A stretch of 64,000 nucleotides of DNA, taken from positions 1 to 64,000 of the forward strand of contig JADGHE010000012.1 of assembly GCA_019689555.1 (NCBI GenBank), given 5' to 3'. This DNA comes from Variibacter sp. Lineage in GTDB: Bacteria > Pseudomonadota > Alphaproteobacteria > Rhizobiales > Xanthobacteraceae. Positions 48,224-53,154 of the stretch are shown one piece after another. Every line of letters begins with the position of its first letter. The stretch's first letter is position 1. A program made the translations under genes and the position numbers. The notes beneath the pieces are model-generated. The model did no database searches, had not been told where the DNA came from, and saw nothing but the letters and a program-made list of their open reading frames with translations.

Positions 48224-48676
48224 TCAGTCCGACCCCGCGGTGCTGCCCGCCGGAATTACGATCTGGGTCTGGATCACCAGCGCGGCGAGCTTGCCGTCCC
48301 CGCGCGTGATGCGCGTCTGCCACACCATGGTGGTGCGGCCCTTGTGCAGGGGCGTGCACACCGCGCGGGCGACGTCGCCGGTCGGAATGGAAGCAAAGAA
48401 GTTGATCTTGCTCTCGATGGTCGCGGTGCGCTGCCCGGGGGCGAGGTTGACGATCGTCGCGGCGCCGCCCAGGTGATCGGCGAGCGCGACGACCGCGCCG
48501 CCATGGACGATCTCGCTCGGATTGCTCAGGTGCTCCGTCACCGGCAGCTCGGCCTCCACCCGGTCGAGCGACAGGAAGGTGATGCGCGCTCCGATGAGCT
48601 GGAAGAAGGGGTGCGGCCGCTCCTCGAAGCGGCGCAGCTTGGCGGGATCGACGCTTCCGTCGGTCGCAATCGGCAT
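48224..48676 (-). CDS. PaaI-family hot-dog thioesterase, copy A
   Basis: This 150-aa hot-dog-fold enzyme probably hydrolyses an aromatic or fatty acyl-CoA. The family motif VHGGAVVALADHLGGAA carries the catalytic-region His-Gly-Gly, and TIESKINFFASIPTGD and GRTTMVWQTRITRGDGKLAA are shared with its neighbour. It is about 55% identical to the next gene by eye and lies 64 nt after it, so the pair arose by tandem duplication. Confidence 0.88.
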   Translation of the reverse strand: MPIATDGSVDPAKLRRFEERPHPFFQLIGARITFLSLDRVEAELPVTEHLSNPSEIVHGGAVVALADHLGGAATIVNLAPGQRTATIESKINFFASIPTGDVARAVCTPLHKGRTTMVWQTRITRGDGKLAALVIQTQIVIPAGSTAGSD

Positions 48677-48740: not shown

Positions 48741-49178
48741 TCAGCCCTTGTGCATCACGAGCTGGGTCTGGGTCACCAGCGCGGCGAGCTTGCCGTCCGC
48801 GCGCGTGACGCGCGTCTGCCAAACCATGGTGGTGCGGCCGCGGTGGAGGGGCGTGCACTCGGCGCGGATCGTCTCGCCGAGGGGGACCGCGGCGAAGAAG
48901 TTCGTCTTGCTCTCGATGGTCGTCGTGCTGGCACCGCGCGGCAGATTGAGCGCCGTCGCGGTGCCACCCAGATTGTCGGCGAGCGCCATCAGTGCCCCGC
49001 CGTGCAGAACGCCGTTGCGGTTGCCCAGCTCCTCGCGCACCACCAGCTCGGCCACGACCCGATCGCGCGAGACATGCGTGATCTTCGATCCGATCAGCTC
49101 GGCGAAGGGAGGCTGCATGGCGGCGATTCGCTGCAGCCTCTGTTCCTCCGTTTCAGCGGCCTCCTCGATCTCGGTCAT
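48741..49178 (-). CDS. PaaI-family hot-dog thioesterase, copy B
   Basis: This 145-aa paralogue has VLHGGALMALADNLGGTA, TIESKTNFFAAVPLGE and GRTTMVWQTRVTRADGKLAA. DNA similarity to copy A is highest over the C-terminal third, where long stretches are identical. The start at 49178 (MTEIEEA) gives the family N-terminus. It is transcribed before copy A and lies 73 nt after the formaldehyde dehydrogenase gene in the same direction, so the three may form one transcript. Confidence 0.88.
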   Translation of the reverse strand: MTEIEEAAETEEQRLQRIAAMQPPFAELIGSKITHVSRDRVVAELVVREELGNRNGVLHGGALMALADNLGGTATALNLPRGASTTTIESKTNFFAAVPLGETIRAECTPLHRGRTTMVWQTRVTRADGKLAALVTQTQLVMHKG

Positions 49179-49251
49179 GGCGCGGTCACCGTGGTCTCGG
49201 GCTCTTGTCGCCGGGGAATTGGCACGACGGCGGGGCGGGATCAACCCTGTC

Positions 49252-50379: not shown

Positions 50380-50605
50380 CCATATCCTCCGTTCAAGGTT
50401 CGCCCCCCCTCGAGAGAGTGGGAACCAGCCACCCGGCGAAAGCGCAGTCTAGACAGGCCCGCCGGCCGGGACGCAAGGCTCGCGCGCTTTCGCCGGCCGC
50501 GCAGGGCGACCGTCGGCGCCATTGTCCTTGCGGGCGGGGACGCGCATTCTCCTCCGCAAAGAACAACGACTGCCGTTCAGGAGCGAAACGCCAAGGGAGA
50601 GGACC

Positions 50606-51577
50606 ATGAGGACGCTCTTTGCCTGCGTGGTGGCGCTGGGGGCGATGCTGGGAGCGGGCCCCGCAGCATCCGCCGCCGATTACCCCAACCGGCCGGTCAC
50701 GCTCGTGCTCGGCTTCGCGCCCGGGGGCCCGAGCGACGTACTGGCCCGGCTGGTCAGCCGCAAGATGGAGCAGATCCTCAAACAGCCGGTCGTGATCGAC
50801 AACCGGCCCGGGGCGAGCGGCGCGGTCGCCTCCCAGGCCGTCGCCCGGGCCGCCCCGGACGGCTACACGCTCCTGCTCGCGAGCAGCGCCATGCTCGCCA
50901 TCAACCCGCAGCTGTACCCGAATGTCGGCTACGATCCGATCAAGGACTTCGAGCCGATCACGGTCCTCGGCACGCAGCCGAGCGTCATCTACGTCCACCC
51001 GTCGGTGCCCGTGAAATCCCTGGCCGAGCTCGTCGCCCATGCCAAGGCCAATCCGGGCAGGCTCAATTTCGCGACCGGCGGCAAGGCCACCCCGCAGCAT
51101 CTCGCGGGCGAGCTGCTGAAGCTCAGGGCGGGAATCGCCATCACCCACGTGCCCTACAAGGGGACAGGTCCCGCCCTGCAGGACGTGATCGCGGGCCACG
51201 TGCAGATCGGCATCTCGGCGGCCGCTCCCGTGGTCTCGAACATCCAGAGCGGGTCGATCCGGCCGATGGCGGTGACCACGGCCAAGCGCGCCGCCGCTCT
51301 GCCCGACGTTCCGACGGTGGCGGAGCAGGGCTACCCCGGCTTCGACGCCAACACCTAGCACGGCATCGTGGCCCCGGCCGGCACTCCGGCCGCCGTCGTC
51401 GAGACCGTGCATCGCGCGGTCGTGGGCGCCCTGAACGATCCGCAAATCCGAAAGCAGGCCGACGATCTCGGCCTCGAGATCGTCGGCAATGCGCCGGAGG
51501 CGTTCCGCGCCATGCTCGAGGACGACCTTCCCCGCTGGGCGGAGATCATCAAGGCCTCGGGCACCAAGGGGGACTGA
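50606..51577 (+). pseudogene. Bug/TctC-family solute receptor, copy 3, with an in-frame amber codon
   Basis: The frame encodes a complete Bug receptor of 323 codons, with signal peptide (ending ASAA), DYPNRPVTLVLGFAPGGPSD and the usual fold, but codon 251 (51356-51358) is TAG. Copies 1 and 2 have Trp (TGG) at this place within NWHGLV and TWHGLV, so one G-to-A change explains it. After the stop the frame continues HGIVAPAGTPAAVVETV to a normal end at 51577, with undisturbed codon use. Truncation would remove the last 72 residues and the end of the fold, so it is probably inactive. The lesion looks recent, or could be a sequencing error. Confidence 0.85.
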
Positions 51578-52203
51578 GGGAGGCGGGGGCCTCGCGGCTG
51601 CCCGGCGGCGCGGCTCGAGGCCTGCCCGCGCGCGGTTGCGGTTGCGGCCGTGTCCGGCCGCGGCGCGGGCTTCCGCCGGCGAGCCGGGGGGCGCCCGGCG
51701 CACGCTCCTCGCCTTGCGAGCGCGCGCGAAAAGGCCGCTTCCCGAGACGGCGAAAATCGAGTCGGACGAGAAGCTTGGCGGCGGGCGACCGAGATTTCGA
51801 TTCAGGGGGCTGCGAGATCGATTCAAGGGCTTCACAAAGCGATCGAGGGCGCCGTTCACAAATCGATTCAGGGGGAGGGACTTCGCAGAGCGATTGCAGA
51901 GCGATTCAAGGGCGCAGGCTTCTTCCCGAATCGATTCAACGGGCGGCCGCAGGCGGCGTCGGCCGCGGCGGCAAAAACCGCGCCCTCGGGCGGGATTTGT
52001 CGAGTCCGTTCATCGCGTTCCGGGCGCGAGCGCGCAAAGTGAATCAAGAAATTCAACCGCGCTCACCGCTTTGGCGGAGGCGCGCCGGCGCGCGCGGCCG
52101 GTCGGCTCGCGCCGCGTCGGAGCTGCATCCGTCCACAGGTCGGGCATGGCTTGACTTTGCCCATCGGGGAGGGTTTTTCGGCGCGTCTACCTAAGGCGCG
52201 CTC
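51578..52203. other. 626-bp non-coding region before fabD, rich in GANTC and repeats
   Basis: No family-like protein is encoded. Open frames present encode repetitive Arg/Ser/Gly peptides produced by the DNA repeats. The region carries a cluster of degenerate direct repeats and nine GANTC sites, and it must include the fabD promoter. Confidence 0.6.
51759..52045. repeat. Degenerate CGATTCA-GGG direct repeats with nine GANTC sites
   Basis: Five copies of a TCGATTCA(A/G)GGG-like unit begin near 51796, 51817, 51862, 51900 and 51930, spaced 21-45 bp. GANTC sites, the target of the alphaproteobacterial methylase CcrM, occur at 51759, 51799, 51820, 51865, 51903, 51928, 51933, 52002 and 52041. By base composition about one would be expected in this length. 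Confidence 0.7.
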
Positions 52204-53154
52204 ATGTCCATCGCTTTCATCTTTCCGGGCCAAGGGAGCCAGTCCGTCGGTATGGGCAAGGCCCTGGCCGAAAATTTTCCGGTCGCCCGCGCGGTTTTCG
52301 AGGAGGTCGACGAGGCGCTCGGGGAGGCTCTCACCGCCACGATGTGGGAGGGGCCGGCCGAGCGGCTCACGCTCACCGAGAATGCGCAGCCGGCGCTGAT
52401 GGCGGTGTCGCTCGCCGCCACGCGGGTGCTCGAAGCCGAGGCGGGGCTCGATCTCGCGCGCGATGCGCAGTTCGTGGCCGGCCATTCGCTGGGCGAATAT
52501 TCGGCGCTGGCGGCGGCCGGCGCGTTCACGATCGCCGACACCGCGCGCCTTTTGCGCATCCGCGGCCGGGCCATGCAGCAGGCGGTGCCGGTCGGGGCCG
52601 GCGCGATGGCCGCGGTCATGGGCCTCGAACTCGCTGAGGCCCAGGCCGTCGCCGCGGAGGCGGCGCAGGGCGAGGTCTGCGAGGCGGCGAACGACAACGG
52701 CGGCGGCCAGGTGGTGCTGTCGGGCTCCAAGGCGGCGATCGACCGCGCGGTCGAGATCGCCAAGGCGCGGGGGGCGAAGAGGGCCATCCTGCTTCCGGTG
52801 TCCGCCCCCTTCCATTGCGCGCTGATGAAGCCCGCGGCCGAGGCCATGGCGGAGGCGCTCGCGCAAGTGGCAGTCAAGGCGCCGAAAGTTCCGCTCGTCG
52901 CCAATGTGCTGGCGCGCCCCATCACCGATCCGGCCGAGATCGTCCGCAGCCTGGTCGCGCAGGTCACCGGCACGGTGCGCTGGCGCGAGTCGGTCGCCTT
53001 CATGGGCGAGGCCGGGGTGACGACCTTCTACGAACTCGGCGCCGGCAAGGTCCTGAGCGGCCTCGTCAAGCGCATCGTCGAGGGCGCGAGCGGAATTTCC
53101 ATCGGCACGCCCGAGGACGTGGCCGCGTTCAGGGCGGCGCGCGCCGCGGCCTGA
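52204..53154 (+). CDS. fabD: Malonyl-CoA:ACP transacylase
   Basis: This 316-aa enzyme loads malonyl groups onto acyl carrier protein for fatty-acid synthesis. It has FIFPGQGSQSVGMG at residues 5-18, the active-site Ser in GHSLGEYSAL near residue 95, and the catalytic His in PVSAPFHCALM near 203. Length is normal. It heads the fabD-fabG-acpP-fabF block, 44 nt before fabG, downstream of a repeat-rich non-coding region. Confidence 0.97.
   Translation: MSIAFIFPGQGSQSVGMGKALAENFPVARAVFEEVDEALGEALTATMWEGPAERLTLTENAQPALMAVSLAATRVLEAEAGLDLARDAQFVAGHSLGEYSALAAAGAFTIADTARLLRIRGRAMQQAVPVGAGAMAAVMGLELAEAQAVAAEAAQGEVCEAANDNGGGQVVLSGSKAAIDRAVEIAKARGAKRAILLPVSAPFHCALMKPAAEAMAEALAQVAVKAPKVPLVANVLARPITDPAEIVRSLVAQVTGTVRWRESVAFMGEAGVTTFYELGAGKVLSGLVKRIVEGASGISIGTPEDVAAFRAARAAA

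Follow-up and report, generated by a model that had tools for sequence, protein, structure and literature searches.

Nine GANTC sites, at which CcrM methylation could act, are crowded into 287 bp (51759-52045) upstream of fabD, and the question raised by this locus is whether they tie the gene to the cell cycle, mark an array of protein-binding sites or an RNA gene, or are the by-product of something else. We investigated it in a window, i.e. the whole stretch of 64,000 nucleotides that was analysed, which lies on contig C101 of a genome of 3.31 Mb (108 contigs, 99.17% complete). Tentatively, we put first the explanation that five 12-bp sites, nearly identical to each other, form a lineage-specific array for a DNA-binding protein, in which GANTC would be incidental.

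GANTC density and direct repeats upstream of fabD

The nine sites start at 51759, 51799, 51820, 51865, 51903, 51928, 51933, 52002 and 52041. From base composition, 0.77-0.92 GANTC are expected in 287 bp, in agreement with the roughly tenfold excess claimed by the sequence-only reading, and the spacer upstream of fabD (626 bp), shuffled 5000 times with its dinucleotides preserved, gave a top 287-bp count of 7. The window as a whole is poor in GANTC (134 observed, 324 expected). A 464-kb sample of the same genome, made of the window and 20 stretches of 20 kb picked, non-randomly, from large contigs, contained 835 GANTC with a top 287-bp count of 6 outside the fabD locus; the cluster is an outlier and 51759-52045 is the densest 287 bp for GANTC within this sample. 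The second highest count in the sample was found upstream of a Suv3-like helicase gene on contig C94, with six GANTC in 263 bp (L139 9609-9871). The count of nine is not unique, because the genome's own ctrA promoter, outside the sample, carries nine GANTC in 190 bp (L159 3009-3198, contig C27) and is denser than the fabD cluster. The nine sites are not independent either, because five of them are one repeat and the site at 51928 overlaps it, in the palindrome GAATCGATTC (51928-51937).

The repeated unit around GATTC, which had been noticed from the letters, was recovered as a 12-bp direct repeat with the core CGATTCA[A/G]GGG, its CGATTCA being at 51798, 51819, 51864, 51902 and 51932. Repeat comparison placed copies 1 (51797-51808) and 3 (51863-51874), both TCGATTCAGGGG, copy 2 (51818-51829, TCGATTCAAGGG), copy 4 (51901-51912, GCGATTCAAGGG) and copy 5 (51931-51942, TCGATTCAACGG), the last of which overlaps the palindrome. 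Two possible decayed copies lacking GANTC, at 51839-51850 (GCGATCGAGGGC, with GCGATCGAGGG at 51840) and 51890-51901 (GCGATTGCAGAG, with GCGATTGCAGA at 51891), are distinguished by their place only, their scores being at chance level and no higher than those of single matches elsewhere in the 464-kb sample. In a weight-matrix scan of that sample the five intact copies rank top; of the decayed copies, the better one is outscored by one unrelated match and equalled by two others. All copies have the same orientation (+ strand) and, both decayed ones included, follow each other in steps of 21, 21, 24, 27, 11 and 30 bp. Site search gave three GANTC that are neither repeat nor palindrome, i.e. GAGTC at 51759-51763 and 52002-52006 and GAATC at 52041-52045, the last being the GANTC closest to fabD.

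The spacer itself (51578-52203) separates fabD (52204-53154, + strand; Pfam PF00698, E = 6e-39) from the remnant of a gene of the TctC family (tripartite tricarboxylate receptor), and none of the three ORFs tested across it (51489-52151 +, 51650-52039 + and 50396-51859 −) matches a Pfam family at E ≤ 0.001, a hit of E = 0.37 in one of them being taken as chance. The TctC gene (50522-51577, + strand) is split by an in-frame TAG at 51356-51358 into a first piece (50522-51355; PF03401, E = 3.6e-61, profile 2-202) and a C-terminal piece that ends at TGA (51359-51577; PF03401, E = 3.9e-8, profile 207-273). The two pieces align to successive stretches of the Pfam model, and the split reflects either recent pseudogene formation or an error in the assembly. 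Further upstream, two neighbouring thioesterase-like genes on the − strand (48224-48676 and 48741-49244) look by eye like paralogues, the second with a Pfam 4HBT match.

The fabD locus in relatives and the repeat in its own genome

We compared 110 fabD loci in total, of which 30 came from 61 genomes, counting the own one, and the others were the best 80 of 555; fabD was matched in 61 of the 61 genomes of the first relative search. The nearest relatives compared belong to other genera of one family, with no congener among them, and the closest FabD among the named loci (best 80 of 555) include those of Xanthobacteraceae, Bradyrhizobium and Rhodoplanes. Two of the 107 other fabD regions (L119 and L132) begin within or at fabD, their "upstream" values being artefacts, which leaves 105 usable regions, the best 80 of 555 included. 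L086 and L105 have less than 200 bp upstream, and the independent regions are fewer, because the upstream sequences of L042 and L094, of L043 and L091, and of L044 and L113 are identical.

In the 105 usable upstream regions (700 bp each, from the set with the best 80 of 555), the maximum GANTC count in 287 bp was 5 and no CGATTCA was found; two GANTC or fewer were counted in 101 of the 107 region values of this same set, the two artefacts being among the 107. Among the 105 other fabD regions that have 600 bp or more (best 80 of 555 included), none has a 7-mer occurring five times within 200 bp; the most-repeated one reaches four times, in one region. A cluster comparable to that of the window was thus not found upstream of fabD in these 105 regions, drawn in part from the best 80 of 555 and with no congener, and such an absence from close relatives was what the sequence-only reading had named as counting against its cell-cycle proposal.

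The same set was used to place the promoter. A strict promoter form (TTGAC, spacer, GTGTCTT-like) was found in 74 of 108 fabD upstream regions (best 80 of 555 included). The fabD region of the window does not pass this strict pattern and presents a looser version, the predicted core promoter CTTGACT ... GGGTTTTTCGGCG at 52150-52184 (+ strand), whose form and place are alike in many relatives. Its −35 starts at 52151, 53 bp before the start codon; a simple sigma-70 scan of 51500-52300 gave no promoter and missed the predicted fabD one too. Counted from this predicted −35, the array is situated about 210-355 bp upstream, and the nearest GANTC, ending at 52045, stops 106 bp short of it.

The neighbourhood of the window's fabD is unusual. 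Among the 109 other loci (best 80 of 555 included), rpsF lies divergently upstream of fabD in 76, at 235 to 2891 bp; the 33 without rpsF comprise 18 with at most 1500 bp of upstream DNA and 15 with 3000 bp. In the genome of the window rpsF is located on another contig (L217, C51:8704-9168), where it adjoins a gene read by eye as a peroxiredoxin. Because the usual divergent neighbour sits elsewhere, the spacer before fabD is probably new in this lineage.

When the whole spacer was the query and two candidates per genome were scored, 89 of 296 family genomes (counting the own one) showed matches; the listed matches span query positions 2-181 and 340-552, mainly GC-rich parts. The array was consequently searched alone, again with two candidates per genome scored. 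Nine of 391 family genomes, own included, then had matches at E ≤ 0.01, the eight non-self ones being of 20-48 bp with E values from 8.2e-4 to 0.0096, and in the order the only genome of 397 at E ≤ 0.001 was the own one. At this depth of two candidates per genome, neither the 390 other genomes of the family nor the 396 of the order yielded a copy of the array.

Within the own genome, where 40 of 135 candidates were scored and 40 matches reached E ≤ 10, the array did not turn up a second time. The strongest non-self match (E = 1.4e-4) falls within the GC-rich part of the array query. A dispersed repeat or mobile element was rejected, no second array having appeared among the candidates scored. 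The search for the repeat elsewhere in the genome, one of the checks attached to the original observation, therefore gave single matches and no further array. The genome contains CGATTCANNGG seventeen times, the array accounting for five, and a search for GATTC triples gave seven matches at five locations, which include the array and ctrA. Outside the array, exact CGATTCAAGGG occurs twice, single and intergenic in both cases (gene starts judged by eye), between hsp20 and an alpha/beta hydrolase gene on contig C103 (L164 3728) and between fliL and flgF on contig C30 (L163 4659). In the match on C103, CTTCACAA follows three bases later, like in the array. These two may be chance, because base composition predicts, as an estimate, about three CGATTCARGGG per genome; a regulon defined by the motif was rejected, the two being indistinguishable from chance. 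The other ten single CGATTCANNGG matches were checked for overlapping open frames, which at this G+C are uninformative on genes.

Binding sites or a decaying repeat

In the explanation that we put first, a candidate DNA-binding protein would bind the array, whose five sites, with perhaps two decayed ones interspersed, share one orientation. The spacer would have arisen when fabD separated from rpsF, GANTC would be present in the site by its letters and not as a selected target, and the bound array may act on fabD. Among the options raised by the sequence-only reading, a protein-binding array is the one that fits best, the binding itself being still putative.

The five intact copies are 88% identical in the 12-bp core, compared to 34% and 23% in the 11-bp flanks before and after it. 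The core is kept while the flanks are unlike, as expected of an array of direct-repeat binding sites. The single orientation and the absence of a folding signal point in the same direction, as does the intergenic place of the two other exact CGATTCAAGGG, which may be chance matches. On the other side, when the two decayed copies are added, identity over the seven drops to 75% in the core and climbs to 42% in the upstream flank, with 22% downstream; two copies have TTCACAAA in common, as a duplication would give; and the distance from the promoter, itself predicted, is large.

The reading that follows close behind, which we consider possible though somewhat less probable, is that the array is the neutral remnant of a short tandem repeat in a rearrangement spacer, decaying and functionless, with GANTC as by-catch. 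The displaced rpsF, on C51 when 76 of 109 other loci (best 80 of 555 included) have it upstream of fabD, the premature stop in the upstream TctC gene, the 42% identity of the seven-copy upstream flank and the failure to find the array in the relatives searched are all consistent with it. So is the result of TRF, which describes the array with a period of 21 bp, 3.6 copies and 71% matches. Three of the 64 TRF rows with periods of 15-40 in the 464-kb sample, the array included, reach its score and copy number; the array is therefore uncommon and not alone.

The intact cores are, however, far better kept than the flanks, and this is what a decaying repeat seldom gives. Evenly decaying tandem arrays were simulated with a 24-bp unit and seven copies in 15 settings, 2250 arrays in all, each best core being selected in the same way as in the real array. 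The observed core identity was reached by 139 of the 2250, and together with equally unlike flanks by 1 of 2250. As only one simulated array is as uneven as the real one, a kept core is favoured, with a simple model in which the copies have a star-like history and change independently. A housekeeping operon would, if the array works as an operator, have gained lineage-specific control after losing its usual neighbour.

Proposed CcrM control, minor alternatives and known systems

The original proposal, that the region is under CcrM and GcrA control and that GANTC methylation times fabD transcription to replication, now appears improbable. The genome has the parts: a RAMA domain of the CcrM type (PF18755), which marks a putative CcrM, is encoded on contig C90, and GcrA (PF07750) on contig C66. 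Among the control genomes, the RAMA profile matched Caulobacter only out of 14, and the GcrA profile matched Caulobacter and, unexpectedly, Sulfolobus acidocaldarius. The outlying density of the cluster stands as well, and the GANTC depletion of the window fits the description, in the part of PMC3973325 that bears on it, of alphaproteobacterial CcrM genomes, in which GANTC is generally rarer than expected and over-represented between genes. The own ctrA promoter, finally, likewise has nine sites.

The position of the sites does not fit. None of the nine lies within 100 bp of the predicted −35. According to the relevant passage of PMC7987155, the GcrA targets of Caulobacter were defined by a GANTC lying between −40 and +40 relative to the start site, moderate repositioning being tolerated; around the predicted fabD start, no GANTC falls within about −40 to +40. 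The same passage gives the extended motif YGAKTCK as a hypothesis for GcrA in Caulobacter that was unsupported in Brevundimonas, so that the motif is a weak test. YGAKTCK is fitted by 2 of the nine sites, which does not exceed the sample-wide rate of 234 in 835, and by none of the five repeat sites; with 3 of 9, ctrA is not singled out either. Direct GcrA control of fabD via the cluster is thus unlikely: the parts of the cell-cycle claim that held are the RAMA domain, GcrA and the outlying cluster, and what speaks against it is the distance of more than 100 bp from the predicted promoter, the repeat without YGAKTCK (the weak test) and the absence of a fabD cluster in the relatives examined.

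The behaviour of ctrA among relatives is also different. A search of 41 genomes returned 30 ctrA loci: 24 belong to the family, the own locus among them, and the remaining 6 to other families of the order. In these regions of 500 bp each the maximum 287-bp GANTC count had a median of 5 and a range of 1 to 9. At least four GANTC in 287 bp were found in 27 of the 30, compared to a maximum of 5 in the 105 usable fabD regions (best 80 of 555 included), and many of the ctrA sites recur across loci at about 250, 241, 160, 122 and 85 bp before the start. The cluster of the own genome, between ctrA and a gene read by eye as fliI, is a picture of a GANTC cluster recurring among relatives. A high number of GANTC is not needed for control, because the Caulobacter ctrA P1 promoter has one, as stated in the portion of PMC3667746 concerned.

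TTGACTC was found in the last 320 bp of 10 of the 108 fabD regions, from the set including the best 80 of 555 (L032, L054, L056, L075, L086, L092, L110, L122, L128 and L136). In nine of these ten it is at the −35 place, and the promoter itself therefore carries GANTC; judged on these letters, such fabD regions would be a better place than the window to seek CcrM control of fabD.

A further improbable reading, slightly less credible than CcrM control by itself, is a methylation-gated operator array. Each site having a GANTC in its core, CcrM methylation would compete with the candidate protein at all five simultaneously, and the genes of fatty-acid synthesis would come under a graded switch dependent on replication, arisen in this lineage after the separation of fabD and rpsF. 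Two others are very improbable. A small RNA or structured leader would suit a long spacer with internal repeats, but the RNA gene that had been offered as an option was rejected: Rfam gave 0 matches at the gathering score in the window, no tRNA was found, the folding z-scores of −0.97 and 0.40 on the two strands are not unusual, the relatives searched, with two candidates per genome scored, yielded no counterpart, and a simple scan, which also misses the predicted fabD promoter, found no promoter-like or terminator-like site. A repeat within a small protein-coding gene across the array would suit the frame-keeping steps of 21, 21, 24, 27 and 30 bp and the long open frames that span it, but such frames are common at this G+C, the ORFs tested are without a Pfam family, and the 11-bp step (51891 to 51902) breaks the frame, an argument that does not decide by itself because this step alone leaves it.

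Literature searches found no work linking GANTC with fabD and none that brings FasR together with fatty acid biosynthesis in Rhodobacter sphaeroides. The promoters shielded by MucR or CtrA, where GANTC is locally hypomethylated (PMC5172544), resemble the locus in having several upstream GANTC that a protein could cover, four in one such promoter; the main text of that source, however, is without the words "cluster" and "repeats". The ctrA promoters of the Alphaproteobacteria, under CcrM and GcrA, are alike in their many intergenic GANTC, nine each for ctrA and fabD in the own genome. The ctrA sites have varied flanks and positions that recur in relatives, whereas the fabD sites are mostly one repeat, not found in the relatives searched and away from the predicted promoter. 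The comparison carries a caution, since one short repeat can yield a dense GANTC cluster as a by-product.

Iteron-like arrays and multi-site operators are known arrays of direct-repeat protein-binding sites, and in the kind of array nothing new was seen here. The fabD array differs from them in its irregular spacing, and its protein is a candidate only; it is like them in its short non-palindromic core, present in several copies of one orientation and separated by divergent spacers.
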